Notes under the pieces: model-generated
Databases searched by the model: none
What the model saw: the letters and a program-made list of their open reading frames with translations, nothing else
Told to the model about the DNA's origin: nothing
Position numbers and translations under genes: made by a program
Origin: Elusimicrobiota bacterium
GTDB lineage: Bacteria > Elusimicrobiota > Elusimicrobia > UBA1565
Direction: 5' to 3'
NCBI GenBank assembly: GCA_016196755.1
Contig: JACPXC010000020.1
Span: forward strand, 1-64,000
Length of the DNA: 64,000 nucleotides
In this document: positions 32,320-60,536 of the stretch, in pieces
Position numbering within the stretch: position 1 is the stretch's first letter
How the letters are laid out: each line of letters starts with the position of its first letter

Positions 32320-32325
32320 GGGGTC

Positions 32326-32331
32326 AGGATA
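32326..32331 (-). promoter_or_regulatory. -10 box (TATCCT) of the antiporter gene
   Basis: Minus-strand TATCCT ends 6 nt before the ATG at 32319. The -35 is weak. Confidence 0.45.
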
Positions 32332-32396
32332 TGAAATGCGGCGGCGCAGATGCAGCTACGTGCTGACTTCCTTAATATGGGGTCCGGGCGGGCCTC

Positions 32397-32425
32397 TTGC
32401 GCGCTCGAACTTTGCCCCCTATCCT
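32397..32425 (+). promoter_or_regulatory. Promoter of giant gene 2 (TTGCGC-N17-TATCCT)
   Basis: TTGCGC (32397-32402), 17 nt, TATCCT (32420-32425), 9 nt, ATG 32435. It matches the promoter of giant gene 1 in both hexamers and both spacings. Confidence 0.6.
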
Positions 32426-32434
32426 GGGGTTGGC

Positions 32435-35400
32435 ATGCGAACCCCTCCGCTGCCGCCGGAAGCTGGATCGCCGAGCCGTCCCGCGCCCCGGGGCGTCTTC
32501 CGACGCGTCTGCGCCGTCGTGCTTTCGCTGGCGCTGGCTTGTCCCGTCCCCGCCGGGGCCGCCGATGACCAGGCGATAGTATCCGAGGATGTCTTCCGCG
32601 CGCAGCCCGGCTCCGGGGCCGACACCAGTCTCTGGATTTTCGATGGCCGCGGCTGGGTGGATCCGGTGACTAATGAATACTACACCGAGGCTCAGTTCCA
32701 GGCGCTGCGCAATCCGACTCCGCCGTCTCCGGCGCAGGCCGCTCCGGTCTCCGCCTCGCCGCCAGAGGTCCAGACTCCGGCGGCCTCCGTTTCCGCCACG
32801 CCAAACCCGTTGGCTGTCGCCGCGCCAGCTCCGGCCGCCGCAGCGGGACCGGCGACGGACGCCCCCGGCGCGTTGGCCGCCGGGCCTTCGCCCGCGACGC
32901 CGGCCGGCCAGCCGGCTCAAGGGCCGGCGGCACAGCGCCAGGCTCCGGCGCTGCGGGAAAACATGGCCGGGGCGGGCAAGACGGTGGGCGAGGCCGGCAA
33001 GCGCATCGGCGTGGCGGCCGCGCCGGGCGCGGCCAAGTCGGAGGGTGGGGGCGGTATCGGCGCGGCGCCGGCCGGCGGGCTCGGGCTCTTCTTCGACGGC
33101 AGGGAGGGTGGGGGCGGCGAGGAGCAGTTGGCGGCCGTGGGGGTGCCGAATCTGGGCGCTGCGTCGGGCGCTGCCGAGGTCCGGCCAGCGTATCTGCCGC
33201 GGGCTTCCGGTCCGGCTGGTTTTCGAAGCGACATTGAGCTTTCCATTGAAGGGCTCCCGGTCCCAGAGCAGCAGATCCTTAAGAAGAGGGATTTTACGGC
33301 GCCGAGATCCGCCACGCTCCTGGGCGGCGGCGCAAGCGAGAGGATCCCGGCGGCATGGCAGGCCGCCTACCCACCCGCGTTCGACATCGCCGGCCGGATT
33401 CTGGGGCGAGGACCGTCGGCCCCGGTCGAGCCTTCCCCGCTCGGCCACGTGCTATCGGCGGCGCCATTGCCCGCGCGCCTCGACGCCGCGGCGCCGCAGG
33501 TAATTCCCGCCGAAGGCGCTTCGGCCAAGGACCTTCTCGAGACCCTGGCGGCGCTCGATCCCGCCAAGGACAAGGCGGCCTACGACGCCGCCGTCGCCGT
33601 TCTCACGAGGCGGGCGGGCGAGATCCTGCCTCAGCTCAAAGCGATTCTCTTGCGCGCCCGGGGCAGCGACATCGCCGGGGCGATGCGGATCCTTGCGGCT
33701 ATGGGGACGCCGGGCTTGGGGCTGGCCCAGGAGCTCCTGGAAGCTGGGCCGATCGGGCGCCGCCGTGCCGCCGCGGCGCTGGCCAGGATGGCCCCGTTCG
33801 ACGCGCGGAAGGCGGCGGGCTTAGTGCCTCCGCTGCGGGCGCTGTTGACCCAGCGGTTCAAGGACGGCGGCGACGAGATAAAGGCGGACGCGGCCCGCGC
33901 GCTGGCCAAAATCGGCCCCGCAGCGCGGGCCGCTCTGCCGGACCTGCTGGGGCCGGCGGCGTCCTATGCCCGTCTGAAGAGCGGTTCTGACTGGATCGCC
34001 GGCGAGGAACGTAAGTTCGGCGAATTCGGCCTCTCTCGGCAATTCTCCGAGGCGGCGTTCGAGGCGGTGGCCGCCTTGGACCCCGACGCCAGCCGGTTCT
34101 TGAGCGCTGTCGTCTCCGGAAGCGTCTCAGCACCTGCGGCCGCCGAGCGGGCCGGCCCTGCCTCCGGGCGCAATCCCTTCGGCCAGGGACCAGACGAAGG
34201 CGAGCGCCTTGACAAAGAAGCTCAGAGGCAGTTCGAGCAAGACGGTCTTTGGGTGATGCAGCTCATGAGCCGGCGCGGCGCGGCCTTGCAGGTCCCGGCG
34301 GCCGCTCTCGAGCGGCAGTTGGCCGGGGGGTACGATGAGGACGCTTCTTTCGATGCCCGCCAGCGCATCGACGCGGCGGAGCTCCTCGCGCGGCTGTATC
34401 CGGAACGCCAGGCCGCGGCCATAGCGGAGTTGCGGAAGGTCGTCGAGGGGACAGGGCTTGCCGATGTGCTGCGCTGGGCGGGCGAAGCCCTGGGCCGATT
34501 GGACGCGCCGGGCCCCGCGGCGCTCCGTCTGGCGGAAGATCTGTCGGCGCCAGACAAGTCCCCAGGCCGGCGCTGGCGTGACCAATATCGGCCGGACGCC
34601 GTCCGCCTCCTTGCCAAGCTCGGAGGAGGCGCGGCCTTCGCCCGGCTGCGCAGCTATGCGTCGTCGCCGGCTGCCAAGGGGCATCCGTTGACGGGCGCCG
34701 CTCCCCCGGAGACTGACCCGAAGGTCAGGCGCGCCGCTGCGGCGGCCTTGATCGCGTTGATTCCAACCGAGCCACAAGCTGCGGGGGCGTTAACGGCCGT
34801 CCTGCTCGACCCTGACGGCGCGGCGGCAGCGTCGGCTCTGGAGGTCCTTGAGTCCATGGAGTTGCCGCGCGCAGCGTTGCCAGGGCTGGTCTTCGCGTTG
34901 ACCAAGGATGCCGACGCGGGGACTCTAGGCTGGCAGAGTGCCTTGAGCGACTCCATGCGAGCGCGGGTTGTGGCCCTGACGGAAGGCCTTCTCGAGGGTG
35001 GTAGCCCGGAAGCGGCGCTCTTCCAGGCCATGCGCGACTCCCGCTACCGGGAGGTCCGTGCGCTCTCCCGCCGCGCCCTGGGCGCGCTTCTCCTCGACGC
35101 CGACGCGGGCAAGGCCATAAGGACTCTAGCTGAGGCGTGGCGGGGCGAGAACCTCGCTCGGGCCCCCGAGGAAACCCAGGTCGTGGCCCTCCTAGCGGCG
35201 TTCGCCGTTGAGCGGACCGATGCCGCTGGCGCCCTCGTGCCGGCGCTGTATCGTAGCGCTGAAACGGCGGAGGCCGCGCGGGAGGTCTTGCGGGCGATGG
35301 GGCCGCGCGCCTTCGAAGCCCTTAACGCCGGTTGGCGCGAGCGGGACGTTCCGGACCGCCAACTCTCGCTTCTGGCCCACTCTGGCTCCGAGGGACTGCG

Positions 35401-38400
35401 GATCGTCGCGGGGATCGTCGCGGACCGCAGTCTTCCGATGAGTCTGCGCCGGGCGGCTCTGGGGGGCTTGGGGGTCGGCGATTCTCATACCCGCCGGGTG
35501 GAGATCGAGGAGACCCTCGTCCCGGTTCTCGCGCAGATCGTACTCCAGGGCGAAGAGGGACTCTGGAAGTCATCGACCAAGGCTCTCGAGCTCATCGGCG
35601 GGCGAGCGGCGGGTAAGGCTCTGCTCGCGGCGTTCGAAAAGTTCCGCGGCGGGGACACGCCGGGGGACCGGGAGCGCGCCACGGCATTCTTGGTCTTCGC
35701 GGCGAAGAATCCGGACCTGGACGTAGTCAAGCTCCTGGGCGAGGAGGTCGACCGGACCTCCGGGGCGCAGCGCTCGTCCTACTTGGTCGCGTTGGCGCCG
35801 CTCGACCCGGGGGCGGTGCGCACGCACCTGGCCGGCGAGGGTGCGCCGAGTCTGTCCCAGATCGCCGCCGCGTCCGAGGGGGACCTTCAGCGCGAGGCCA
35901 TGGACCTGCTCATCGCGAAGATCCCCGCGCTTAGCGAGAGCGAGATCCGACGGGCTTTCGGCCAGCCTCGTCTGCCGGAATCCGCCGGCGCCACCGCAGC
36001 TCTGATCCTAAGGCTCAAGAGCGACGATGAGTTGGTCCGCATGGCTGCGCTGGACGCTCTTGCTGAACACGCCGCGCCGGATGATGCTCTAGAGACCGCG
36101 CTGGTGGCGGCTGTCTTGCGGCCGCGGCCCCGCGTCGGCTATACCGTCCGAGAATCGGCGATCAACGCTATCGGCCGCCTCGCTGAGCGTTTCCCCGGAT
36201 GGCGGCTGGAGTCAGCCGCGGCTGCGCTCTTGAAGGTGGAAGCGGAATCCACGCTCCTCGCTGCGGTGTTGGGCAAGCTCGGCTGGCGGGCCGGTCCTGA
36301 GTCGATTTTGGTGTTGGATAAGCAGCGCGCAGAGATCAAGGCCACGCCAGGCGTCATCCGCCGTCAGGAAACCATCGACGACGTCTCTGCTGCGATCGAG
36401 AAGATTCGGGCTGAATTGGCTGCGCCGCCGCCGATTCCCCAGGCGGTCGTCTATGGGCCGCAGGAAAAGGCCGCCGGCCCGAGGCCGGAGGATCCTAGCC
36501 TTAGGCTGTTCGTGGCGGATGGTCCAGGGATCGGGCTGGTCGACCCGTACGCATTTCCTGGGGCCGCCGCGCGTATCGCGGCTCTGGGCCCAGCGGCGCG
36601 AGAGTTCGTTCCAGACTTGAAGCGCGCCGCCGCCGGCTTGTTCATCGTCTCGGCCCCGCGCTCAGGCGAGACGCCGGAAGCGTCGGCCGCCGTGGTGCGC
36701 GCCGCGGCGATGAAGGCCTTGGGACGGATCGAGCCCGATACGCTGGCTTCTCTGGCAGCCGGCGTGGCGGCCGAGCTGGAGGAAACCCCCGGAGCCGGGC
36801 TGCTGGAGATCGCGGGGCGGGCGCTGCGAGCCAGCGCGGCGGAGATGGGCCTCCCGATACCGCTCCTTGCGACGGAATCTTGGGACGAGGAGATGGAGCG
36901 AGCGTTCGCCGCGCTCGAGGCGGCCGGGGAAGTCCTGTGGCACAGGAAGACGGTCTTCATCGACGCGCGCGGGCGCAAACACGTCGGCTATGCGCACCAG
37001 AAGGAGAACGGCGCCTGGCAGTTCGTCACTGAGGATGGATTTCTCGCGGCGCTGGCCCCCGATGGCGACCGGCTGGCCACGGACCTGAGCTCCGGCGCTG
37101 GCGTGCGTCGCCAGGCTGACGGCACGGTGGCGCGCATGGACTCCGAGGGGGGGTTCTCGCTGGTCGAAATGGTTCCGGCGCCGCCTTCCTGGCGCGATCT
37201 CCCCGGCGTTCCATCGATATCGCCGCGGCTGGCGCGCGAGACGGTGAGTTGGTCCGCGCCGGATTCGGAATCCGGCGAAACCGTCATCCGCTTCCACGGT
37301 ACAGAAACGATCGCCCCCCGGGGCGCGACCGTGCTGTTCGAGGACGGTCGTGTGCGAATCTTCCGGAAAGACGCGAATGGGACGATGCTCCCCCTGGCTT
37401 GGCTCGAGCGTGAGGATGGGTTGGGGCTGACGACCATCTTTCGCTACGAGGTCCTCCAAGGGGGACTCGGCGTGATCCGCGAGAGGCTCAAGGGACTCAA
37501 GCTCGAGGGCGAGGGTAAGAAGGTCATCTTCTTTCCCGAGGCCGTGGCCGGTCTGCGCGCGGGCAGCCTCGATCTCGCGGGCCTTCCGGCGGAGCTGCTC
37601 TCAAGCGCCGACCGTCGGGCCTTCGAGGGCTTTTTCGACGCCTATGCCTCGTTCGCCGGGGATTCCGGAGTTGCTCCCGAGGTGGAGCGGGCCTTCCGCG
37701 GAGAGAGTTGGACCGACGAGGAGGGCACTCGGTTCAGTTGGCAGGTGGGGGGCTTCAACCTGGTCCGCGACGCAGACGCGAAGCAGCGTTTGCAGTTGCT
37801 AGTGCTCGAAACGGTCGAGCGCTACGGGTTTCCCGCCAAGATCAACGCGCTACAGCTCTACGTCGAGGCCAAGAAGGATGGGTTCGACGTCGTGAGCGCC
37901 CGAGAATCCGGCAAGCTCGAGGTGCACGCCTTTCGCCGCGCCGGGTCCGGTGGCTCCGTCACGGTCGAGCGTCTCGTCCTTGATGAACGCCACGGCTCTG
38001 AGGGGCGCTTGCGGACCCGGCTTGGAGAAAAATTCTCCTCCATGGGCGCAGGAGTATGGCGCACGACCGAAATGGGGCTGCCGAGCTCTGTGGAGGTCCC
38101 GGATCCGGTCCTTGGCGCCATCGGTCAAGGAGTGGATGTCGTCTTTTCCCCTTTTCAGACGATTCTCTATGGGGTCGTCGGACTCGGCAAGCTGGGAATC
38201 GGCAGGGGCGCGGGCGCGATGGGCTATGAGGATACCGAGTTGATCTACGCCTCCGATGGCATCCACACGATGGGTCAGGGCCGCTTCATGCAATGGGCTG
38301 ATTATTACGGAAATGGTTTGGAAGGTCGTGAGCGGGACGTGGACGTCCAGAGAAAGGTGCTGGCGGCGCTCTCCCCGCGGCAGAGGCAGGCCTATCGGGC

Positions 38401-41400
38401 GACGATGGAAGCGGAGTTCGAGCGCCGCGAGCGCAAACGCACGGGGCGGTTCTACTTCTTGGCTGACCGTTTCGCCGAAGATGCCGACCTTGCCGTTACA
38501 GCCGCGCAGGTCCTCGGGCAGGGGAATCGGGCGCGCCTATACATGGAAAGCGGGCGGGAAGCCTACGAGCGTGGCGATCACGGCGGCTTCGTCCGGAACT
38601 ATGCGATGGGCGGAGTTTACGTCGGCGGCGAGATGTTCATTGTGAGCGCAGGTTTCGGCCTCATCGTCTCAGGTCCGGTGCGCGTGGCGCTAGCTGCGCG
38701 CAATCTGACGGCGGCGGCGCAAATCCTCAGCGCGGCTGAAACGGTCGTGTTCGTGGGGCCGATGCTCATCAATACCGTCGACGCGTTGGGCGACCTGCGC
38801 ACCGAGAGCGATCCCGAGTTTCGGTGGCAGCATTTCGACCGCGCGTTCGAAGGATCCGTGGGGGTCCTTGGACTCTTCGCGGGGTGGGCTTGGGGCCGCA
38901 TGGAAGGCTCTGCCGAACCCGCGCTGTCCGTTAAGGCGGAGCGCGCGCTGGAATCCCTGGGTATTAAGCCCGCGGAGATTCAGGGCAAGCCGGTCGCAGA
39001 GGTGCGCGAACTGGTCGATCGCGCATATCGTCGGAGACTGACTAAGGGAGCCCATCCCGACATTTGGGAGTCGTTGCCCCCCGGACCGAAGAGGGCCGCG
39101 GGGGAGGCTTCGTATAAGGCGGTTCGCGAGGCGCAGGGCACGCTGCTATCCCTGCTTGACGTGGGATCGCTGGAGGGCGCGCCGCCGCCCGCCCCACGAG
39201 GCGAAGGCGGGAGCCTGTTCTCGAGGCTGGCGGCCTGGCTGTTCCCGGCGGGGAAGGCCGCGGCGCCGAGCGCGCCGCGGGCCGGGAGCGGACTGCTGCC
39301 CGGGCCGGCCGCAGAAGTGGCCGGCCGCGCCCCTCCGGCCCGGACCACCTCCAAGCAGGTCGTCGACTCGTTGAAGGACTTCCTTGCGGCGCCCGAGGGG
39401 GACTGGACCGCGAAGCATCTGGCCAATCTCCTTGCCCGCGAGGGCGTCGCGGCCGAGCGCGGGTTGACCAAGGAGCAGGCGCTCGGGCGCATCCGCGAGG
39501 CCCTGGAATCCGGAGACATCGAGATCGGCGAGCTTGCGCCCGAGATGGCGGCCGGCTTCGATCCGAAGACGGGCCGCATCACGATCAATAGGTCGTTTGC
39601 GGACGCGCCGCCCGAGCTCCTGCGCGGCGCGCTCCTTCACGAGCTCATTCACCGCGCCTTCCCGAAGTCCTACGAGATCGTCGCCCATCGGATCGAGAAT
39701 TACGTCTATGACCGCTGGGGCTGGCGGTCCGACCCGGCGGTGGAGACCGCCTACGGGCGCGGCGTGGCCGCGCGGCGGGCCGCGGAACGCCGGGGCGACT
39801 ACCGCCGGATCTTGGAGGCTTACCCGGAGAACCAGCTCGGTCCCCTCGAGACCCGCAAGAAGCTCCAGCCGCTGCTCGAGGACCTGCGGTGGGCCGCCAA
39901 GACGCTTGGGGAGCTGTACCGGGAGATAGACGCCGGGACCCTGAAGGCCGAAGGGATCGAGGCGAGGCTTGGCGAGAAGGCCGCGGCGCGCCGCGGCGCC
40001 GACGGCGCGCAGGCGCGCCGGGACGTGGCGCTCATCAAGGAGCTCCTCAATGAGACCAACCCCGAGACCCTGAGCGGAGGGAGAGGCCTGGCGGCCGTGG
40101 AGCGCGGACTGGAGGAGGCCGGGTCTCGGCTCGAGCTCGTGGAGAACGATCTTCGCCGCCTCAGGAGCGAGTCGGCGGCCGGACGCAAGCTCGCCGCGGA
40201 ACCCTCGGTCGAGGGCGCCGGGTCGGCTCACCTGGACAAGGTCGTCGCCGACGTGACCCCGCTCCGCTCGGGGGCGTTCGCGGACGTCTCCGTCTCGAAG
40301 ATCGCCCCGGATGTCGTCGTCAAGGTGGGCAAGGCGTTCCCGGATTCCCCGGCCTTGAACGCGGTATGGGAAGCGGACCGGGCGCGGGTAGAGGCGATCG
40401 CCGCCCGTTTGGGCTCGACGGTCGAGGTAGTCAACGGCGTGGCCCTGAAGAGGCTGGACCTCCCCGTCACTCCCTACCTTTTCCGGGACGGGCGCGTCCT
40501 CTTGACGATGAAGGTGGAGACCGAAGGGGTCACGACGGCGCACGTCCGCGAGGTGCAGGCGGCCCTATTCGAGAAGGGCGTGGCCTGGCTGGACCTGGAT
40601 ATCTCGAACGTGGGCCTGATCCAGACCCCAAAGGGCGGCCTGCGTCCTGTGCTCATCGACTTCGGAGGTCTCGTCGACTTCAATGCGCTTCCGGGGAGCG
40701 CGGCCACGGGTCGGGCCCTCGCTGGCCTCGTCCGGTCGCCGGTGGGTGAATGGGGCGTGTGGCTCCGCCAGACGGTGAGGCTCAAGCCCCTCATCGACTT
40801 CTTTGCCGCCCCGCCGAAGGGCGGGGAAGGCGTCGGCCGGGCTTCGGCGTTCGGCAAGCTGCAGGAGCTCTCCAAAGAGACGCCCAAGAAGGACTTCCCC
40901 GGAGTCCCCGGCGCCATCGACCATGTCGAGGGGCCGCTGCGGGCCTTGCGCACCATCGAGATCCCTCCCGACATGCTCGGCTACGGCAGCGAGCTCAGGG
41001 AGCCGCTGGCTCCCCGGGCCGAGCTGTCCAGCCTCGCGGAGGTGCCCAAGGCCGACGTCGTCGAGGTCTCGAACGTCGTATTCGCCAGCGAGGAGCACAG
41101 CGGCAGCTCAGGCCTGGTCCGCTTGGCCAAGCTCAAGGACGGCCGCGCCGTCGCGGTCAAGGCGATCCTCGCCTCTCCTCCGGTCTCCGAGGCGCGTACG
41201 GCCGGATGGATACTCGAGGAAGCCAACTCGGCGGCTCTCTTCTCGGACCTCGGCGTGGGGCCCAAGTTCCACGGTATTTGGACCGACGGGGCGGGACGCC
41301 TCAACGTCGTCATGGACATCGCCCGCGGCGACTTCAGCGGCACTCCCGTCAAGGACGCCACCTTCGCCGACCTCGAGGCGATCATCGGCCGGCTGCGCGG

Positions 41401-43327
41401 CGCCGGGATCAAGGAGGTCGGGGATTTCCAGGCCTATCGCACTCCAGAGGGCCGGCTCACGCTCATAGACCCGGCAACGGCGATCAAGGACCGGGGCGTG
41501 AAACCGCCTGCGGACCCCGACAGCCGCTACGGCTTCGCCACGGGCCAGCGCCTGGCCCTGTTCGAGGCGGCCCCAGCCGATGTCGGCGCGCGCTACCTGG
41601 AGGGGCTGCGCGCGAAAGACCCGGCCGCCTACCGCGGCCTGCTCGAGGCCCTGCCGGCCGCCAAGCGGCCCAGCCCCCAGGCATCCGCTCCGCCGGCGCC
41701 GCCCGCGCCCCTGTTCGACCGCTTCCTGCGCGCGGTCGGCCTCGGCGGCCAAGCCGTCCCCGAGCTCCCGATCACGGTGCTGGGCAGCGGCGAGGCCGGC
41801 GTCGTGCTCCGCTTCCAGCGGCCCGGCGAGCCGCCGCTGGCCGTCAAGGTCTCCCGCACCGGGCCGAGCCGCCTCAACGCCAAAGCCTGGGAGGCGTTTC
41901 TCGACGAGCCGGAACGGGTGGACTCGGTTTCGCGCGCCTATGACCGCCGCCCCATGGCGAATTTCGAGGTCCCGCGGCCGGCGCATCCGACGTTCACGCC
42001 CGGGGAACTGCGCGCGCTCAAGGCCGCCAGCGGAGCCCCCGGCGAGGTGGTCGAAAACGGCCGCATGGTCGTCACCAACGCCGTGCCCGGCCAGACCCTC
42101 AAGGCGTATTTCGAAAGCGGCGGGCGACTCACGCCGGCGGAGGCCAAGACCATGCGCGAGGGCCTGCGCGCCCTCAACGGCGAGGGCTACTTCGCCTTCG
42201 ATCTCAAGTCCGACAACATGATGGTCTACGACGACCCGGTCCGCGGCCGGGTATTCGTGCTCATCGACACCGGCGCGATGAGCTTCAAGACCCCGAAGAC
42301 CTCGGAGCACGCCGCGGCCCTGGCGCGGCAGAGCGGCCTCTTCGATGGGATGGTGAAGCCCTTTCTCGAAAAACCGGCGTCCGGCGGACCGGTCACGACC
42401 CAGGGCCGGGCGGTCCGGGAGACCGTCCCGCCGTCGGCGCGCCGGACCGCGGTGCTCGCGGAGATTCTCTCGCCGGACTCGGCGCTTGCCGCCGACCCGG
42501 GCCTCGCCCCGTTCGCGGCGAAGCTCGAGGCCATCAACGTCAGCATGCGGCGCGCCTACGATGAATTGGCGGCCGCGCCGCCCAAAGACGCCGATATCCT
42601 GTTCGATAAGGCCATCGCCTTGCGGCGCCGCACGGCCGCCGACGTCGCGGCCCTGGCCGCCGATCCGACCGTGCCCGAGGTCCTGCGCAAGACGTTCGTC
42701 AAGGCGGCCGAGAAGTACGGGGTGAGCGCTAAAGAGGAAGCCAAGCTCCGCAAGAAAGTCGCCACGGACCCCGCGAATACCATCAGAGGAGTCCTAGGTG
42801 AAGCCGCCGAGCTGGACGTCAGCCTGCGCGTTTCGGGCTTCGTCGAACGCGGCGGGACCATCCGGGAGAGACTCCTCGCCGATGGCGTCGGCAAGAAGGA
42901 GCTGCTGGGCGCGGCCCGCGATTGGGTCCGCGCGGCCGACCCCGCCGCGCAGGAGGCCCTCCTCGCGCTGGCCCGCGAGCGCCTGGCGGCCCGGGAGCCG
43001 GGCGCCGTCATCGCCGACGTCGAAGCGATCCCCGCCGACATCCTGGACTCGCTGACGCTCCAGAAAGAGGTCGCCGACGTCGTGTTCAAGGACGGCCGCG
43101 CCTGGGGCGAGGTCAAGAACCTCGACTCCGTCACGACCCTCGAAGGCCTGCTCGACGGCGCCAAGGGCAAGTCCCTGTTCACCCAGGCGCGCGAGAACCT
43201 CCTGGTCAGCCGCTTGTTCGGCCCCGAGGTGCGGGAGTATCATTACTTCTTCGTGGACGGCATCACCCCGCAGGCCGCCGCGCGCCTCCAGGCGCTCGGC
43301 ATCATCGTGCACGGGATCGCCCGTTGA
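32435..43327 (+). CDS. Giant exported protein: HEAT, J, metalloprotease-like, three kinase-like domains, nuclease-like C-terminus
   Basis: About 3630 aa from ATG 32435, where similarity to giant 1 begins and a promoter fits; the frame is open further upstream. A signal-like N-terminus and shared blocks precede HEAT-like repeats (about 380-1350) and a beta-rich part with VFSPFQT (near 1902). Hydrophobic helices (about 2065-2160) precede a J domain (about 2175-2235, HPD 2207-2209). A zinc-protease-like segment has HELIH (2402-2406). Three kinase-like folds follow: Asp2722/Asn2725/Asp2742 (DFG); Lys2909/Asp2997/Asp3012; Lys3138/Asp3256/Asn3261/Asp3278. The last ~110 residues show Asp3548...Glu3559-x-Lys3561, as in PD-(D/E)xK nucleases. 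A small gene overlaps the stop. It resembles a polymorphic toxin, though with an unusually elaborate body. Confidence 0.8.
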   Translation: MRTPPLPPEAGSPSRPAPRGVFRRVCAVVLSLALACPVPAGAADDQAIVSEDVFRAQPGSGADTSLWIFDGRGWVDPVTNEYYTEAQFQALRNPTPPSPAQAAPVSASPPEVQTPAASVSATPNPLAVAAPAPAAAAGPATDAPGALAAGPSPATPAGQPAQGPAAQRQAPALRENMAGAGKTVGEAGKRIGVAAAPGAAKSEGGGGIGAAPAGGLGLFFDGREGGGGEEQLAAVGVPNLGAASGAAEVRPAYLPRASGPAGFRSDIELSIEGLPVPEQQILKKRDFTAPRSATLLGGGASERIPAAWQAAYPPAFDIAGRILGRGPSAPVEPSPLGHVLSAAPLPARLDAAAPQVIPAEGASAKDLLETLAALDPAKDKAAYDAAVAVLTRRAGEILPQLKAILLRARGSDIAGAMRILAAMGTPGLGLAQELLEAGPIGRRRAAAALARMAPFDARKAAGLVPPLRALLTQRFKDGGDEIKADAARALAKIGPAARAALPDLLGPAASYARLKSGSDWIAGEERKFGEFGLSRQFSEAAFEAVAALDPDASRFLSAVVSGSVSAPAAAERAGPASGRNPFGQGPDEGERLDKEAQRQFEQDGLWVMQLMSRRGAALQVPAAALERQLAGGYDEDASFDARQRIDAAELLARLYPERQAAAIAELRKVVEGTGLADVLRWAGEALGRLDAPGPAALRLAEDLSAPDKSPGRRWRDQYRPDAVRLLAKLGGGAAFARLRSYASSPAAKGHPLTGAAPPETDPKVRRAAAAALIALIPTEPQAAGALTAVLLDPDGAAAASALEVLESMELPRAALPGLVFALTKDADAGTLGWQSALSDSMRARVVALTEGLLEGGSPEAALFQAMRDSRYREVRALSRRALGALLLDADAGKAIRTLAEAWRGENLARAPEETQVVALLAAFAVERTDAAGALVPALYRSAETAEAAREVLRAMGPRAFEALNAGWRERDVPDRQLSLLAHSGSEGLRIVAGIVADRSLPMSLRRAALGGLGVGDSHTRRVEIEETLVPVLAQIVLQGEEGLWKSSTKALELIGGRAAGKALLAAFEKFRGGDTPGDRERATAFLVFAAKNPDLDVVKLLGEEVDRTSGAQRSSYLVALAPLDPGAVRTHLAGEGAPSLSQIAAASEGDLQREAMDLLIAKIPALSESEIRRAFGQPRLPESAGATAALILRLKSDDELVRMAALDALAEHAAPDDALETALVAAVLRPRPRVGYTVRESAINAIGRLAERFPGWRLESAAAALLKVEAESTLLAAVLGKLGWRAGPESILVLDKQRAEIKATPGVIRRQETIDDVSAAIEKIRAELAAPPPIPQAVVYGPQEKAAGPRPEDPSLRLFVADGPGIGLVDPYAFPGAAARIAALGPAAREFVPDLKRAAAGLFIVSAPRSGETPEASAAVVRAAAMKALGRIEPDTLASLAAGVAAELEETPGAGLLEIAGRALRASAAEMGLPIPLLATESWDEEMERAFAALEAAGEVLWHRKTVFIDARGRKHVGYAHQKENGAWQFVTEDGFLAALAPDGDRLATDLSSGAGVRRQADGTVARMDSEGGFSLVEMVPAPPSWRDLPGVPSISPRLARETVSWSAPDSESGETVIRFHGTETIAPRGATVLFEDGRVRIFRKDANGTMLPLAWLEREDGLGLTTIFRYEVLQGGLGVIRERLKGLKLEGEGKKVIFFPEAVAGLRAGSLDLAGLPAELLSSADRRAFEGFFDAYASFAGDSGVAPEVERAFRGESWTDEEGTRFSWQVGGFNLVRDADAKQRLQLLVLETVERYGFPAKINALQLYVEAKKDGFDVVSARESGKLEVHAFRRAGSGGSVTVERLVLDERHGSEGRLRTRLGEKFSSMGAGVWRTTEMGLPSSVEVPDPVLGAIGQGVDVVFSPFQTILYGVVGLGKLGIGRGAGAMGYEDTELIYASDGIHTMGQGRFMQWADYYGNGLEGRERDVDVQRKVLAALSPRQRQAYRATMEAEFERRERKRTGRFYFLADRFAEDADLAVTAAQVLGQGNRARLYMESGREAYERGDHGGFVRNYAMGGVYVGGEMFIVSAGFGLIVSGPVRVALAARNLTAAAQILSAAETVVFVGPMLINTVDALGDLRTESDPEFRWQHFDRAFEGSVGVLGLFAGWAWGRMEGSAEPALSVKAERALESLGIKPAEIQGKPVAEVRELVDRAYRRRLTKGAHPDIWESLPPGPKRAAGEASYKAVREAQGTLLSLLDVGSLEGAPPPAPRGEGGSLFSRLAAWLFPAGKAAAPSAPRAGSGLLPGPAAEVAGRAPPARTTSKQVVDSLKDFLAAPEGDWTAKHLANLLAREGVAAERGLTKEQALGRIREALESGDIEIGELAPEMAAGFDPKTGRITINRSFADAPPELLRGALLHELIHRAFPKSYEIVAHRIENYVYDRWGWRSDPAVETAYGRGVAARRAAERRGDYRRILEAYPENQLGPLETRKKLQPLLEDLRWAAKTLGELYREIDAGTLKAEGIEARLGEKAAARRGADGAQARRDVALIKELLNETNPETLSGGRGLAAVERGLEEAGSRLELVENDLRRLRSESAAGRKLAAEPSVEGAGSAHLDKVVADVTPLRSGAFADVSVSKIAPDVVVKVGKAFPDSPALNAVWEADRARVEAIAARLGSTVEVVNGVALKRLDLPVTPYLFRDGRVLLTMKVETEGVTTAHVREVQAALFEKGVAWLDLDISNVGLIQTPKGGLRPVLIDFGGLVDFNALPGSAATGRALAGLVRSPVGEWGVWLRQTVRLKPLIDFFAAPPKGGEGVGRASAFGKLQELSKETPKKDFPGVPGAIDHVEGPLRALRTIEIPPDMLGYGSELREPLAPRAELSSLAEVPKADVVEVSNVVFASEEHSGSSGLVRLAKLKDGRAVAVKAILASPPVSEARTAGWILEEANSAALFSDLGVGPKFHGIWTDGAGRLNVVMDIARGDFSGTPVKDATFADLEAIIGRLRGAGIKEVGDFQAYRTPEGRLTLIDPATAIKDRGVKPPADPDSRYGFATGQRLALFEAAPADVGARYLEGLRAKDPAAYRGLLEALPAAKRPSPQASAPPAPPAPLFDRFLRAVGLGGQAVPELPITVLGSGEAGVVLRFQRPGEPPLAVKVSRTGPSRLNAKAWEAFLDEPERVDSVSRAYDRRPMANFEVPRPAHPTFTPGELRALKAASGAPGEVVENGRMVVTNAVPGQTLKAYFESGGRLTPAEAKTMREGLRALNGEGYFAFDLKSDNMMVYDDPVRGRVFVLIDTGAMSFKTPKTSEHAAALARQSGLFDGMVKPFLEKPASGGPVTTQGRAVRETVPPSARRTAVLAEILSPDSALAADPGLAPFAAKLEAINVSMRRAYDELAAAPPKDADILFDKAIALRRRTAADVAALAADPTVPEVLRKTFVKAAEKYGVSAKEEAKLRKKVATDPANTIRGVLGEAAELDVSLRVSGFVERGGTIRERLLADGVGKKELLGAARDWVRAADPAAQEALLALARERLAAREPGAVIADVEAIPADILDSLTLQKEVADVVFKDGRAWGEVKNLDSVTTLEGLLDGAKGKSLFTQARENLLVSRLFGPEVREYHYFFVDGITPQAAARLQALGIIVHGIAR

Positions 43328-55122: not shown

Positions 55123-56067
55123 ATGTCCGTCGAGGCCCTAGACAGTTCCCTGGACCGCGTGCGTACGGGTCTCGAGCGCCGCGTGGCCGCCTTGGGGGCC
55201 CGGGTGGGCGACCACCTGGCCGGGTACGTCGGCCAGCCCGGCAAGCTCCTCCGGACGCGCTACACCTTGCTCCTCGGCCGCGCGCTCGGCGTGGACTCGA
55301 TCCAGGCCGAGTCGGTGGCGCGGGCCGTCGAGCTGGTCCATAACGCCTCCCTGCTCCACGACGACTGCATCGACGAGGGGCTGCTGCGCCGCGGCGTGCC
55401 CACCCCGAACGCGCTCTTCGGCGACCGCACGGGCATCCTGGTGGGCGATCTGGCCTTCACCCAGGGGATGGCCGAGGCGGCGCTGGTGTCCTCCGAGGCC
55501 GTCCGGAGCCTGGTGGCCGCGGTCCAGGAGATGACGATCGGCGAGCTGCAGGAGGAGTTCCTCAAGGGCTCGCTCAACGTCTCGGTCGAGGGCTACTACG
55601 GCGTGGCGGCGCGCAAGACCAGCGCGCTCTTCGAGTGGGCGGGCCGCGTGCTCTCCGACGAGAGCCCCCTGGACCATCGCCGCGAGGACCCTCCGCGCCT
55701 GGGCGTGGCCGCCGGAGTGCTCCTGCAGATCGTCGACGACATCCATGATTTCACGCTGGCCGAGGCCGTGGCCGGCAAGCCGCCCGGCCAGGACCTCCAC
55801 AACGGCCGCCTGACCCTGCCGGGCATCATCGCGATGGACGACGACGCCTCGCGTGAGCGCTGGATCGGCCTGTGGGGCGAGCGGTCCTCGGGCCGCCTCG
55901 ACCAGGCTCTGGCCCTCTTCAAGGAAGGCGGGCACCTCGACACCGCGCGCGGCGAGGCGCGGCGCATCATGACGGCGATGCTTCCCTGGGCCGAGGCCCT
56001 GCCTCAGCGCGAGGCCGCCGCCGAGCTCTGCGGCTTCATGACCGCGCTCTTTAACCGGGAGTTCTGA
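55123..56067 (+). CDS. Polyprenyl diphosphate synthase (IspA/IspB type)
   Basis: A 314-aa trans-prenyltransferase that condenses isopentenyl diphosphate onto an allylic primer. It has G-K-L-L-R (41-44 region), the first Asp-rich motif DDCID (80-84) followed by RRG, and the second motif DDIHD (205-209) preceded by G-V-L-L-Q. Length fits the long-chain (quinone side-chain) enzymes, though chain length cannot be read safely. It is the first gene of the operon. A UbiA-type prenyltransferase three genes later is its obvious partner, providing and attaching a prenyl tail. Confidence 0.88.
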   Translation: MSVEALDSSLDRVRTGLERRVAALGARVGDHLAGYVGQPGKLLRTRYTLLLGRALGVDSIQAESVARAVELVHNASLLHDDCIDEGLLRRGVPTPNALFGDRTGILVGDLAFTQGMAEAALVSSEAVRSLVAAVQEMTIGELQEEFLKGSLNVSVEGYYGVAARKTSALFEWAGRVLSDESPLDHRREDPPRLGVAAGVLLQIVDDIHDFTLAEAVAGKPPGQDLHNGRLTLPGIIAMDDDASRERWIGLWGERSSGRLDQALALFKEGGHLDTARGEARRIMTAMLPWAEALPQREAAAELCGFMTALFNREF

Positions 56068-56068
56068 C

Positions 56069-56515
56069 GTGAGCCTATACCAGAAGCTGTCGCGGCTGGC
56101 CTGGAAGACCGGGGAGTACAAGGTCTCCGAGGACGCCGTCGCCGACGGCAAGGGCCTGACCGGCGCGGCCCTGAGGGATTTTTTGCGCTCTAAGATGGAG
56201 TGGATCGTCGCCCGCGAGGCCTTGGAGCCCACCGCGGCGTCGCCGCAGAGCAAGGAGGGACGGATGAAGCTGGCCCAATACGTGAAGTTCCGCGAAGAGA
56301 AGTTCGGCGGAGTACTATTTGAGACGAAGTCCGAGAAGGTGTTCACGCTGTCGCAGACCGGCGCGGCCATCCTGCGCGAGATCGTCGCCGGCGGCGTGGA
56401 GTCCGAGGTCGTGGCGCGCCTGCGGGAGCGCTTCGCCGACAAGTCCGGCGCGCTCGAGAAGGAAGCCAAGGAGTTCATCGCCGACCTGCGCGCCAAGGGG
56501 CTGGTGACCGAGTGA
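56069..56515 (+). CDS. PqqD-like peptide-recognition protein
   Basis: A 148-aa protein. The C-terminal ~80 residues are PqqD-like (E-K-F-G-G-V-L-F-E-T-K-S-E-K-V-F-T-L-S-Q-T-G, then a helix, then F-I-A-D-L-R-A-K-G-L-V). PqqD domains bind the leader of a ribosomal peptide and hand it to a radical SAM enzyme. The N-terminal ~65 residues are an added helical region. The start is GTG 56069, just after the synthase stop, and the end overlaps the radical SAM start (GTGA). The small peptide at 59434 is the likely client. Confidence 0.8.
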   Translation: MSLYQKLSRLAWKTGEYKVSEDAVADGKGLTGAALRDFLRSKMEWIVAREALEPTAASPQSKEGRMKLAQYVKFREEKFGGVLFETKSEKVFTLSQTGAAILREIVAGGVESEVVARLRERFADKSGALEKEAKEFIADLRAKGLVTE

Positions 56516-57531
56516 GCTCGGTCACCGAGAAGCTCCAGAAGAGCTCCAGCCTGGGCTACACCGGCGAGAACCCCGCCGTGCGCCCCGGGGACACCGGCTC
56601 CGGCGACCTGGGCGCCCCGCTCTACGTGGCCTGGCAGATCACCAACGAGTGCAACCTGGCCTGCCTGCACTGCATCGAGGAGTCGGGCCCCGGCAAGGCG
56701 TTCAAGGACGAGCTCTCCAAGGAGCAGATATTCGCCGTCCTCAAGCAGATGGTCGAGCACCAGGTGCCGTACATGTCCTTCTCCGGCGGCGAGCCGATGG
56801 TGCATCCCCATTTCTGGGAGATGACCGAGTACCTCTGCGCCAACGGGGTCCAGCTCAAGGTCGAGACCAACGGCCACTACCTCACGCCCGAGGCCTGCAA
56901 GCGCCTCAAGGACCTGGGCGTCAAGGCCGTCCAGGTGTCGATGGACGGAGGCTCCAAGGAGACCTTCAAGAAGATGCGCGTGCACGGGAACTGGGACACC
57001 ATGGTCCAGGGCCTCAAGAACCTGCGCGCCGCCGGCGTGCCGCTCGAGATCAACTACTCGCCGACCAAGTTCAACACCCACGAGATCGCCCAGGCCGTCG
57101 ACCTCTCCCACGAGCTCGGCGCCTACAGCTTCTACACCGGCCGCACGATGTACACCGGCAACGCGGTGCGGACCTGGCACCTGCTCGTCCCCACCGACGA
57201 GCAGTACACGGCGTACTTCAAGACCCTCCACGAGAAGACCGCGCAGTACGAGGGCCGCATGCGGGTCTACTTCCACGAGATGGGGCTCTTGGAGGAGCTG
57301 CGCTACCGGCTCGAGAACCCGGCGGCGCTCTTCATCATCCTGCCCAACGGGCTCGTCAAGCTCATCAACGCCCTGCCCTTCATCTGCGGCGACCTGCGCA
57401 CGGACTCGGTCACCAAGGTCTGGGCGGGCTTCCAGACCGCCTGGAAGGACCCCAAGGTGGCGGCGTTCGTCTCCGACATGGCCACCGACCCGAAGCTGAC
57501 CTCGGCGCTCCATAAATGGGTGTTCGTGTGA
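56512..57531 (+). CDS. Radical SAM enzyme 1 (peptide-modifying type)
   Basis: A 339-aa radical SAM protein. Cys47-x3-Cys51-x2-Cys54 (ECNLACLHC) holds the catalytic Fe4S4 cluster and SGGEP is the SAM-contacting motif. The sequence resembles PqqE/SPASM enzymes in its first 250 residues. The C-terminus keeps only one conserved Cys (PFICGD), so a full SPASM domain with two extra clusters is not present. It overlaps both neighbours by four bases (GTGA), directly after PqqD. The likely task is modification of the 36-aa peptide. Confidence 0.88.
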   Translation: MSSVTEKLQKSSSLGYTGENPAVRPGDTGSGDLGAPLYVAWQITNECNLACLHCIEESGPGKAFKDELSKEQIFAVLKQMVEHQVPYMSFSGGEPMVHPHFWEMTEYLCANGVQLKVETNGHYLTPEACKRLKDLGVKAVQVSMDGGSKETFKKMRVHGNWDTMVQGLKNLRAAGVPLEINYSPTKFNTHEIAQAVDLSHELGAYSFYTGRTMYTGNAVRTWHLLVPTDEQYTAYFKTLHEKTAQYEGRMRVYFHEMGLLEELRYRLENPAALFIILPNGLVKLINALPFICGDLRTDSVTKVWAGFQTAWKDPKVAAFVSDMATDPKLTSALHKWVFV

Positions 57532-58454
57532 TCAAGGCCGTGGTCAACGATCCCCCGCACCTCAAGCCCGGAGCGGCCATCCCGCTCAAGGTCTTCAGCA
57601 TCGTCCGCTACCGCTTCTTCCTCTACGCGGGGCTCTTGCCGTACCTGCTGGGGGCCGCCTGGGCTTACGGGATCGAGGAGACCTTCCGGCCCGGCGTGTT
57701 CTGGACCGGCTTCATGGGGATATTCCTCTCGGTGGTCGGCGTCGAGGCCTTCAACGAGTACTTCGATTCGCGCATGGGCACCGACCGGGTGTTCAACCCC
57801 GACGACGAGGACCCGATCCCGGACTGGGTGTTGACCCTGGGGATCGGCGCGTTCGCGGCGGCGGCCTCGGTCGGCCTCTATCTGGCCGTGGCCGGCGGCT
57901 GGCCGATCGTGCTCTACACTTTGCTCGGCGGCCTGGCGGCGGTGTTCTACGTCGGCCCACCCATCCGCTGGGTCTACCGCGGCCTTGGCGAGACGATGAT
58001 CGCGCTCTCCTACGGCCCGTGGATGACGCTGGGCAGCCTGCACCTGCAGACCGGGCATTTCTCCTGGGGAGCGCTCCTGGCCTCCTGCGTGCCGGGCTTT
58101 CTCATCATGGCCCTGGCCGTCGTCAACGCCATCCCGGATTTCCACCAGGACCGCCTGGTCGGCAAGCGCAACATCGTCGTGCGCGTGGGACGGCTCAACG
58201 GCGTGCGTGTCTATCTCGGCCTGGCCGCGCTGGGCCTACTGACTCCGGTGGCAGGCGTGGCGGCCGGCCTGTTCCCGACCGGCGCGCTGGCCGCGCTCCT
58301 GGCGGCCCCGCTCCTGGTCTTGAGCGGCCGCGAGGCCTTCAAGACCTACGACACCCCGCGCGAGTTCATCCCCGCGGTGCGCTACATCGTGGTCTGCTAC
58401 ATCGCCGGGACGACGCTGTTTACCGCCGCATTGTTCCTCCACCGATGGATCTGA
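57528..58454 (+). CDS. UbiA-family prenyltransferase
   Basis: A 308-aa inner-membrane protein with about nine helices. It has the two Asp-rich loops of the family: N-E-Y-F-D-S-R-M-G-T-D and D-F-H-Q-D-R-L-V-G-K-R-N. UbiA proteins transfer a polyprenyl chain to an aromatic or other acceptor at the membrane; MenA and UbiA make quinones. The start is GTG 57528, whose GTGA overlaps the upstream stop; ATG 57516 is an alternative. The next gene starts ten bases before this one ends. Its acceptor may be the product of the radical SAM enzymes. Confidence 0.88.
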   Translation: MIKAVVNDPPHLKPGAAIPLKVFSIVRYRFFLYAGLLPYLLGAAWAYGIEETFRPGVFWTGFMGIFLSVVGVEAFNEYFDSRMGTDRVFNPDDEDPIPDWVLTLGIGAFAAAASVGLYLAVAGGWPIVLYTLLGGLAAVFYVGPPIRWVYRGLGETMIALSYGPWMTLGSLHLQTGHFSWGALLASCVPGFLIMALAVVNAIPDFHQDRLVGKRNIVVRVGRLNGVRVYLGLAALGLLTPVAGVAAGLFPTGALAALLAAPLLVLSGREAFKTYDTPREFIPAVRYIVVCYIAGTTLFTAALFLHRWI

Positions 58455-59437
58455 GCGCCCCGTTGTTCGTGTCCTGGCAGTTGACCCGGGACTGCAACCT
58501 GGCCTGCCTGCACTGCTGCACCGACTCGGCGCCGGGCCGCAAGGCGCCGGGGGAGCTCTCCCGCGAGGAGGCGCTCCGCGTGGCGCGCCAGATCGTGGAG
58601 GCCGGCGTCCCCTACGCCATGGTCTGCGGCGGCGAGCCGACCATCGTGCCGTGGTTCTGGGAGGTCGTGGAGGTCCTGGGGCGCGGCGGCGTCCAGCTCA
58701 AGATCGAGACCAACGGGCAGTCCTTCGGCCCCTCCGAGGCGGCGCGTCTGGCCTCCCTGCCGATCCGCTCGGTCCAGATAAGCCTCGACGGCGACAGCGA
58801 GGCTGTCTACGCCAAACAGCGCCCCGGGGGCGTCCTCTCCAAGGCTCATGCCGCCTGCCGGGCCGTCGTCTCCGCCGGCCTGCCGCTCGAGATCACCTTC
58901 GCCCCGACCCGGGTCAACATCCACGAGGCCGAGGCCGTGGCCGCGCGGGCCGTCTCCCTGGGCGCCTTCCGCTTCAACACCGGGGCCCTCATGCGCCTGG
59001 GCACGGCCGCCAAGCTCTGGGACCGCCTCGAGCCGACGGTCGAGCAGTATGCGGCTTTCCGTGCCGTCCTCGAGCGGCTCGACGGCGGTCTTAACAAGAA
59101 AATCGAGTACTGCTATACTCCTTTTACTATCGAGGAAGGCCTCCGCGAAGGCCTGTCCGCCCCTCCGGCCACGCTCTTGGTGCTGCCGGACGGCCGGGTG
59201 AAGGTGGCCGCGCCCCTTCCCTTTACGTGCGCCGACCTGCGCCAGGCGAGCCTGGCCCAGGCTTGGGACGACTACCGCTCGGCATGGGAGCGCCCCCAAG
59301 TGCGCGAGGCCGCCGACCGGCTCCTAGCGGAGCCCGAACGGCTGGCCGACGCGAACACGTGGCGCGTGCTCGACACAGATCTGCGCTCGACGGGTGACCG
59401 TACGACGCGGAATGCGGTGTATCAGGAGACCCAATGA
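58445..59437 (+). CDS. Radical SAM enzyme 2 (peptide-modifying type)
   Basis: A 330-aa paralogue of the 56512 gene. Cys17-x3-Cys21-x2-Cys24 (DCNLACLHC) and CGGEP are intact. The C-terminus again has a single conserved Cys (PFTCADLR). The start ATG 58445 lies within the end of the UbiA gene. The stop overlaps the ATG of the small peptide gene (ATGA), tying peptide and enzyme expression together. Confidence 0.88.
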   Translation: MDLSAPLFVSWQLTRDCNLACLHCCTDSAPGRKAPGELSREEALRVARQIVEAGVPYAMVCGGEPTIVPWFWEVVEVLGRGGVQLKIETNGQSFGPSEAARLASLPIRSVQISLDGDSEAVYAKQRPGGVLSKAHAACRAVVSAGLPLEITFAPTRVNIHEAEAVAARAVSLGAFRFNTGALMRLGTAAKLWDRLEPTVEQYAAFRAVLERLDGGLNKKIEYCYTPFTIEEGLREGLSAPPATLLVLPDGRVKVAAPLPFTCADLRQASLAQAWDDYRSAWERPQVREAADRLLAEPERLADANTWRVLDTDLRSTGDRTTRNAVYQETQ

Positions 59438-59544
59438 ACAACAAGCCCGCATCGAATGTCGCTGAGAAGCCCGTCTGGGAGAAGCCGTGCCTCGAGGAAG
59501 TCTCCCAGCGCGTGATGGCTCAGCCGTACATTCGGTTCACGTGA
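59434..59544 (+). CDS. 36-aa PqqA-like precursor peptide (putative RiPP)
   Basis: A 36-aa peptide with a basic N-terminus and the stretch WEKPCLEEVSQRVMAQPY (15-32), then I-R-F-T. PqqA-type precursors commonly show W-x-K-P-x-x-x-E followed by a Glu-x3-Tyr pair that PqqE cross-links. Here Trp15, Lys17-Pro18 and Glu21/Glu22 match and Tyr32 falls where the PqqA Tyr would. The Glu position four before it is Met28. A Cys19 adds a possible thioether donor. AGGAGA precedes the ATG. It overlaps the upstream enzyme by ATGA and the downstream one by GTGA. Assignment as substrate is inference from size, motif and position. Confidence 0.75.
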   Translation: MNNKPASNVAEKPVWEKPCLEEVSQRVMAQPYIRFT

Positions 59545-60536
59545 GTAAAGAGAGGGGGGCCGACGTAGGAGACTACTCGGCCCCCCTCTTCCTTGCGTGG
59601 CAGCTCACCAACCGCTGCCAAGCCCGCTGCCTCCACTGCTGCGAGGAGTCGGGACCCGATAAGGCCTGGAAAGACGAGCTGACCCGCGAGGAGTCGCTCA
59701 AGCTGGCCCGCGACGCCGTCGCCGCCGGCATCCCCTACGCCGCCTTCGGCGGCGGCGAGCCGCTGGGAGTCAAGCACGTCTGGGAGGTGCTCAAGGTCCT
59801 CGTCGAAGGGGGGACCGAGCTCAAGCTCGAGACCAACGGCCTGCCGATCGGCGAGCGCGAGGCCGACCTCCTGGCCGAGTGGAAGGCGCAGTGCATCCAG
59901 ATCTCGATGGACGGAGCCACCAAGGAGGTCCACGAGACCGTGCGCCCCGGCGGCGACTTCGACGGCGCGCTGGCCTCGATCAAGCGCCTTGTAAAGCGCG
60001 GCCTGAGCCCCGAGTTCGTCTTCGTCCCCAACAAGCGCAATGCCCATCAGGCCGCCGCCGCCTACGAGCTGGCCGCCCAGCTCGGCTGCCGCACCTTCGT
60101 CACCGGCCCCATGATGCGTCTGGGCCGCGCCGCCCAGTCATGGAACGGCCTGAGCCTGGCCGACCGCGAGTGGGCCGACGCCGAGGCCGTCATGCGCCAA
60201 AAGGCCGCCCAGCTCGGCGAGCCGGTCAAGCTCTCCGTCTACCCCTGGGACATCCTGACCGAGATGCGCACCCGCCTCGAGAGCCCGCAGGCCATGATGC
60301 TGGTCGTCCCCAACGGGCGGGCCAAGCTCCTCAACGCCCTGCCCTTCGCCCCGGGGGACCTCCGCCGGCACAGCCTCGCCGAGTGCTGGGAGTTCTACAA
60401 GGAAGCCTGGCGCTCCGAGGAGGTCGCCGATTTCATCGAGCGCGCCCAGACCGACTCGAGCCTCCTCCGCTACGCCAACGACACCTGGGACACCGGCGAG
60501 TGGACTCTCCGCCGCAAAGCCCTGGCCTCCCGCTGA
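59541..60536 (+). CDS. Radical SAM enzyme 3 (peptide-modifying type)
   Basis: A 331-aa third paralogue from GTG 59541, overlapping the peptide stop. The frame is open further upstream, but similarity begins at S-A-P-L-F-L-A-W-Q. Cys26-x3-Cys30-x2-Cys33 (RCQARCLHC) and GGGEP are present. The C-terminal Cys kept in the other two copies is replaced (PFAPGDLR). It therefore appears to carry only the SAM cluster, suggesting a different step from enzymes 1 and 2. It is the last gene of the operon. Confidence 0.88.
   Translation: MSKERGADVGDYSAPLFLAWQLTNRCQARCLHCCEESGPDKAWKDELTREESLKLARDAVAAGIPYAAFGGGEPLGVKHVWEVLKVLVEGGTELKLETNGLPIGEREADLLAEWKAQCIQISMDGATKEVHETVRPGGDFDGALASIKRLVKRGLSPEFVFVPNKRNAHQAAAAYELAAQLGCRTFVTGPMMRLGRAAQSWNGLSLADREWADAEAVMRQKAAQLGEPVKLSVYPWDILTEMRTRLESPQAMMLVVPNGRAKLLNALPFAPGDLRRHSLAECWEFYKEAWRSEEVADFIERAQTDSSLLRYANDTWDTGEWTLRRKALASR

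Follow-up and report, generated by a model that had tools for sequence, protein, structure and literature searches.

A conserved gene cassette linking a radical SAM peptide pathway to a UbiA-type prenyltransferase in Elusimicrobiota and other bacterial phyla

We analyzed a 64,000-nt stretch of an Elusimicrobiota genome (GenBank GCA_016196755.1, contig JACPXC010000020.1, positions 1 to 64,000), called the window here. Positions 55123–60536 carry a cassette of seven genes that, judged by its conservation, is one real biosynthetic system. Its universal core, kept together across phyla by comparison of loci, is a short precursor peptide, a PqqD-like protein, a radical S-adenosylmethionine (rSAM) enzyme, rSAM1, and a UbiA-family membrane prenyltransferase. 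The explanation that best covers the whole is a peptide-derived, prenylated redox carrier, a reading we hold at even odds. The features, all on the + strand, are as follows.

55123–56067, +: polyprenyl diphosphate synthase (PPS; PF00348), with both DDxxD motifs (HDDCIDE; VDDIHDF)
56069–56515, +: PqqD-like protein with a C-terminal PqqD/RRE domain (aa 82–146) and an N-terminal extension
56512–57531, +: rSAM1, a CxxxCxxC radical SAM enzyme without the full SPASM cysteine set, common to all loci
57516–58454, +: UbiA-family membrane prenyltransferase of MenA/UBIAD1 type, both Asp motifs kept (NEYFDxxxGTD; PDFHQD)
58445–59437, +: rSAM2, found in layout A only
59434–59544, +: precursor peptide, 36 aa, MNNKPASNVAEKPVWEKPCLEEVSQRVMAQPYIRFT
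59476–59505, +: leader motif WEKPCLEEVS of the peptide (consensus W-x-[KT]-P-x-[LMI]-x-[DE]-V-[ST])
59512–59541, +: C-terminal core VMAQPYIRFT of the peptide, invariant in the host order
59541–60536, +: rSAM3, found in layout A only; its radical SAM motif CxxxCxxCC is kept in Pseudomonadota

All seven open reading frames (ORFs) of the original prediction, which was made from the sequence alone, are present, and they are translationally coupled. The predicted short overlaps and single gap also hold: a 1-nt gap separates PPS from the PqqD-like gene, which overlaps rSAM1 by GTGA; UbiA and rSAM2 share 10 nt; rSAM2 and the peptide share ATGA; and the peptide and rSAM3 share GTGA. The rSAM1/UbiA junction depends on the UbiA start: with the ATG the overlap is 16 nt, with an in-frame GTG at 57528 it is GTGA. 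The predicted families each score above their Pfam cut-offs: PPS has 137 bits against polyprenyl_synt, the PqqD-like protein 42 against PqqD (cut-off 23.4), the prenyltransferase 72 against UbiA (34.2) and rSAM1, rSAM2 and rSAM3 96, 68 and 69 against Radical_SAM (29.5). None of the seven window proteins reaches an NCBIfam equivalog cut-off, and the peptide has no match in Pfam or NCBIfam. The best NCBIfam match of PPS is an encapsulin cargo model, below cut-off. The host genome (G000) is 4.59 Mb, and its named relatives are groundwater and soil Elusimicrobiota metagenome-assembled genomes (MAGs).

The cassette is stable within the host order. UbiA is present in 42 of 57 relatives, and all 37 complete loci keep the order PPS-PqqD-rSAM1-UbiA-rSAM2-peptide-rSAM3 together with the peptide. 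PPS was undetected in two host-order loci (L042 and L061). When 341 genomes of the phylum were scanned for its pattern, the peptide core appeared in 44 host-order genomes and in 3 genomes of two other families. Among the Elusimicrobiota outside the order, L112 and L113 have a shorter layout with a single rSAM (peptide-PqqD-rSAM1-UbiA), and a third genome (L114) has PqqD-rSAM-UbiA-rSAM-peptide-rSAM.

A peptide-blind UbiA profile scan of 84,980 genomes, one per species, returned 80 loci. The peptide accompanies UbiA in all 41 untruncated loci outside the host order, distantly related Elusimicrobiota included (L251 ends at a contig end). Layout A, which includes rSAM2 and rSAM3, was seen in 21 loci of Pseudomonadota; among these are Rhodopila globiformis, Rhodothalassium salexigens, Rhodovibrio sodomensis and Betaproteobacterium GR16-43, the last on a complete chromosome. 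Layout B, peptide-PqqD-rSAM1-UbiA, defines the minimal core; its carriers belong to Omnitrophota, Planctomycetota and Lentisphaerota or are contigs with Bacillota, Chloroflexota or Myxococcota labels. By these assignments the cassette is kept in at least eight bacterial phyla. Phylum labels of single MAG contigs may be wrong; recurrence in many independent assemblies makes the wide distribution secure. In other phyla the PqqD-like protein has about 82–87 aa, shorter than the window copy. The gene-order search proposed with the original prediction came out in its favour: neither the 37 complete host-order loci nor the 41 untruncated others found through UbiA include one without the peptide, or a cassette UbiA without rSAM genes. 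Order conserved inside and outside the host order also rules out chance co-location.

Two loci have irregular rSAM genes. At L046:11646-13197 (G012), about 1.55 kb splits rSAM3 after its first codons, possibly a mobile element. At L247:592-2562, a planctomycete layout-B locus, rSAM1-like genes are tandemly duplicated.

The peptide is coding, because no complete locus lacks it at this position and its core DNA varies freely at wobble sites under nearly constant amino acids. In host-order loci the N-terminal part drifts and the VMAQPYIRFT end is unchanged. Cores in the 41 untruncated loci outside the order read [VIL]MAQP[YF]IRFT, with VTAQPYIRFT in L204 as the sole exception. Over 81 sequence contexts, the 8 residues after Met change in only two cases, both Y to F, and the last 10 codons take 60 distinct DNA versions in which nearly every wobble position varies. 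The pattern scan behind the 81 contexts presupposes the core, and the same peptides were reached from the UbiA-anchored loci. Presence across loci and wobble variation under nearly constant amino acids rule out a spurious short ORF. In L116 (G049:C257), a short contig with no detectable cassette enzymes, a second, divergent peptide has the same core.

A core frozen in its amino acids and free at its wobble positions would suit a cofactor, unlike a diversifying toxin or pheromone. This bears on the alternative of a prenylated, ribosomally synthesized and post-translationally modified peptide (RiPP) with no redox role: a membrane signal, antibiotic or structural lipid, cross-linked by rSAM enzymes and lipidated by UbiA, in a logic like that of ComX or prenylated lanthipeptides. 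We consider this unlikely. The leader/core build and the pairing of PqqD with rSAM are as in RiPPs, prenylated lanthipeptides exist (PMC12715784) and the co-conservation fits such a product equally well. Set against this, pheromones and antibiotics diversify whereas this core is frozen across phyla, and the flanks of 46 loci hold no conserved transporter, immunity or receptor gene. (These flanks hold no conserved gene family beyond PPS, so no helper genes.) Two points described below, the nqr neighbours and the host order's lack of known quinone genes, also argue against it.

A second alternative is that two unrelated pathways, one making a RiPP-type cofactor and one prenylating a lipid, share one operon. 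Pathways of either kind are known by themselves, and operons can mix unrelated functions. Their union is nevertheless kept in two layouts and in every untruncated locus across phyla, and no genome was seen with one half alone, except for the second peptide copy in L116. Trees point the same way: the Pseudomonadota copies form one group in both the UbiA and the rSAM1 tree, and in the latter this group sits with the window's own genus and close kin, which fits transfer of the cassette as a unit (UbiA-tree support is weak). No plasmid-borne rSAM1 was found in PLSDB at E 1e-40. We hold a shared operon of unrelated halves to be very improbable. The placement of PPS suggests, in addition, that the tail-making enzyme was recruited separately to the same partners. 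It stands beside PqqD in Elusimicrobiota, and a separate PPS, of only 30–34% identity, stands behind UbiA in Omnitrophota (L236, L240 and L241) and in the planctomycete L242.

By the tests we ran, the cassette lies outside the PQQ, mycofactocin and MenA families. The peptide, with its variable leader and conserved core adjoining an RRE/PqqD protein and an rSAM, makes the locus a candidate member of the radical-SAM RiPP class; two Asp-rich motifs and the UbiA fold place the prenyltransferase in the UbiA superfamily. Within these classes, curated cut-offs rule out a PQQ or mycofactocin locus. MftC is the best NCBIfam model of all three rSAMs, at 127, 112 and 98 bits against a cut-off of 265. The PqqD model TIGR03859 gives 23 bits (cut-off 46), and the PqqE model TIGR02109 at most 85 (381). 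The predicted rSAM1 fold is nearest to SkfB and then to PqqE (model pLDDT 74.5, moderate confidence). For UbiA, the nearest relative is UBIAD1, a menaquinone-4 enzyme, and the MenA equivalog models give 100.6 bits against 264 and 53 against 102.

The likenesses to known systems are partial. The PQQ system (PqqA, PqqD and PqqE) also makes a redox cofactor from a short peptide with an aromatic core residue, using a PqqD chaperone and a radical SAM enzyme. Unlike it, the cassette has no E-x3-Y in its core (VMAQPYIRFT in 81 contexts) and no PqqB or PqqC beside the core genes in the flanks of 46 loci, and it has a constant membrane prenyltransferase partner. Mycofactocin, likewise a redox cofactor, shares the conserved C-terminal core, a PqqD-like protein (MftB) and the rSAM to which all three cassette enzymes are nearest (MftA-MftF; PMC3023750). 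It differs in that the cassette has three rSAMs, a UbiA in place of a glycosyltransferase and peptides that end in IRFT rather than Val-Tyr. MenA/UBIAD1 with a polyprenyl diphosphate synthase resembles the cassette in the UbiA fold, the Asp motifs, the adjoining synthase in some phyla and the nqr neighbours, and is unlike it in that the cassette UbiA scores below the MenA cut-off and has rSAM, PqqD and peptide partners.

Prenylated RiPPs (ComX/ComQ, cyanobactins and prenylated lanthipeptides; PMC12715784) share the placing of an isoprenoid on a ribosomal peptide. They differ in having diversifying cores and no rSAM/PqqD set. We know of no prenyltransferase of a prenylated RiPP that is UbiA-type. 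Methyl-plastoquinone of Nitrospirota is a recently found isoprenoid quinone, an indication that quinone types were still missing; it is made by ubiquinone-, plastoquinone- and menaquinone-type enzymes, with no peptide (PMC11874023, cited in PMC13386864). The original prediction's claim that no described pathway holds all of these parts stands for NCBIfam, Pfam and the papers searched, among which we found none on the core motif or on UbiA with radical SAM RiPPs.

Links to respiration come from neighbours and from gaps in known pathways. Directly upstream of the cassette, on the same strand, lies nqrABCDEF in L241 (Omnitrophota), L242 (Planctomycetota) and L239; L238, which is truncated at its beginning, has nqrC to nqrF there. 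In L241 about 33 nt separate the nqrF stop from the predicted peptide start. The NqrA-like subunit of L241 scores also as RnfC. Since NqrF of L241 (311 bits, cut-off 295) and NqrB of L242 (359, cut-off 350) exceed curated cut-offs, these are Nqr rather than Rnf complexes. Upstream of the cassette in L243 are subunits that resemble V/A-type ATPase, named from sequence only.

Host-order genomes encode the machinery that a membrane carrier would serve: NuoH in 57 of 57, cytochrome b in 38 of 57 and a heme-copper oxidase in most. None of the 57 has MqnA/D (PF02621) or a MenD above cut-off. Conventional ring sources are therefore missing there, an ordinary menaquinone locus is ruled out for the order and the original prediction escapes the objection that a normal quinone locus might need both prenyl genes. 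Across the phylum, MqnA/D exceeds its cut-off in 33 genomes and the peptide core occurs in 47; the two overlap only in G232, where the MqnA/D match is weak and partial. Of the window genome's remaining UbiA proteins, one is a heme o synthase (257 bits against a cut-off of 210); the two others are encoded in tandem, and the member of this pair that was scored comes closest to GGGP-transferases.

Cultured carriers of the cassette are Rhodopila globiformis DSM 161, Rhodothalassium salexigens DSM 2132 and Rhodovibrio sodomensis DSM 9895. Ubiquinone, menaquinone and rhodoquinone are all present in the membranes of R. globiformis, where the QA site has been modelled with a menaquinone (PMC9640540); PMC12542754 likewise gives menaquinone-9. 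The genome encodes five UbiA proteins: that of the cassette and four others, each above a curated cut-off, namely a heme o synthase, a 4-hydroxybenzoate prenyltransferase, a bacteriochlorophyll synthase and an HAD-UbiA protein (PRK08238 family, related to DPPR synthases). With these four assigned, the cassette UbiA would be the sole candidate left to prenylate menaquinone, barring a role of the DPPR-type protein or of a gene missing from the assembly. In R. salexigens, a MenA-like UbiA gene lies apart from the cassette beside a tryptophan 2,3-dioxygenase-like ORF (L293:7066-10159), an unusual pairing for quinone synthesis.

The R. globiformis assignment also bears on a third alternative, in which the cassette UbiA in practice serves as MenA in a pathway to a menaquinone-like product with a ring from chorismate or another route, and the peptide is a carrier, a scaffold, a regulator or the source of an rSAM-made cofactor. 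Its MenA/UBIAD1-like character and its standing as sole candidate in a menaquinone-9-containing organism favour this. The lack of MqnA/D, and of any MenD above cut-off, in the host order counts against it, as do carriers such as Acidiphilium, which to our knowledge has been reported with ubiquinone only. We regard it as improbable.

Several observations weigh against a peptide-derived redox carrier. The nqr linkage is confined to about three lineages. Five genomes at least 90% complete (G014, G027, G028, G036 and G047) have NuoH, cytochrome b and oxidase and no cassette, so the cassette is not the host order's only way to run the chain; in these five we found no other quinone-type UbiA and no divergent cassette near UbiA-like genes. 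They may scavenge quinones, use another route or be missing contigs. In Acidiphilium and Acidocella MAG carriers the other UbiAs are of ubiquinone and heme o types, so there the cassette product can be an addition. Ordinary benzoquinones need a hydroxylase, and the cassette has no recognisable one. Phe replaces Tyr at position -5 in L253 and L257 (Phe at -2 is invariant), so the Tyr hydroxyl is not always pre-made in the peptide. PPS, finally, is outside the universal core and not adjacent in Pseudomonadota loci.

We infer a pathway to the redox carrier whose steps are given in order of certainty. First, the PqqD-like protein would bind the leader motif, its presumed recognition site, and present the core to rSAM1, by analogy with the making of PQQ and mycofactocin. 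Second, rSAM1, with rSAM2 and rSAM3 in layout A, would rebuild the aromatic part of the core (Tyr/Phe -5 and/or Phe -2), presumably the source of the product. Third, the MenA/UBIAD1-like UbiA would add a polyprenyl tail, its synthase being co-encoded in several lineages. The acceptors that UbiA enzymes prenylate are lipophilic membrane compounds, aromatic or with a polar head. Taken together, the parts are most simply read as a pathway in which an rSAM-made aromatic head from the core would be the acceptor. Fourth, host peptidases would release the product; we propose these because no peptidase gene is conserved in the cassette. Fifth, the product would be a membrane redox carrier for NADH:quinone oxidoreductases and downstream complexes, a ribosomal counterpart of isoprenoid quinones.

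The first three steps, as a class, probably describe a single prenylated-peptide pathway. That the product is a membrane-bound redox lipid is an evenly balanced proposition; in its favour are the near-constant core, the nqr genes next to the cassette and the lack of a recognised quinone pathway in several carriers. The original prediction of a prenylated, membrane-bound, peptide-derived redox cofactor or quinone is thus borne out in part: a prenylated, peptide-derived product is likely, and the quinone nature we only infer.

Elsewhere in the window, two giant proteins of 3232 and 3669 aa (21122–30820 and 32318–43327) have similar N-termini and HEAT-repeat matches; the former has weak cNMP-binding and kinase-like matches near its C-terminus. 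A 2004-aa protein (8246–14260) has an internal DnaJ domain and an apparent signal peptide.

Tentatively, the cassette may represent a third origin for a respiratory quinone: an isoprenoid carrier whose head is cut from a ribosomal peptide by O2-independent radical SAM chemistry. Such a carrier would be a main quinone of Elusimicrobiota, Omnitrophota and Planctomycetota lineages that lack a recognised quinone pathway, and may be the 'menaquinone' of R. globiformis. If this is true, ribosomal peptide chemistry and membrane electron transport would meet in one pathway, for which we know of no described precedent. Should the product turn out not to be a quinone, RiPPs that depend on a UbiA would still be a new class, spread over at least eight phyla.

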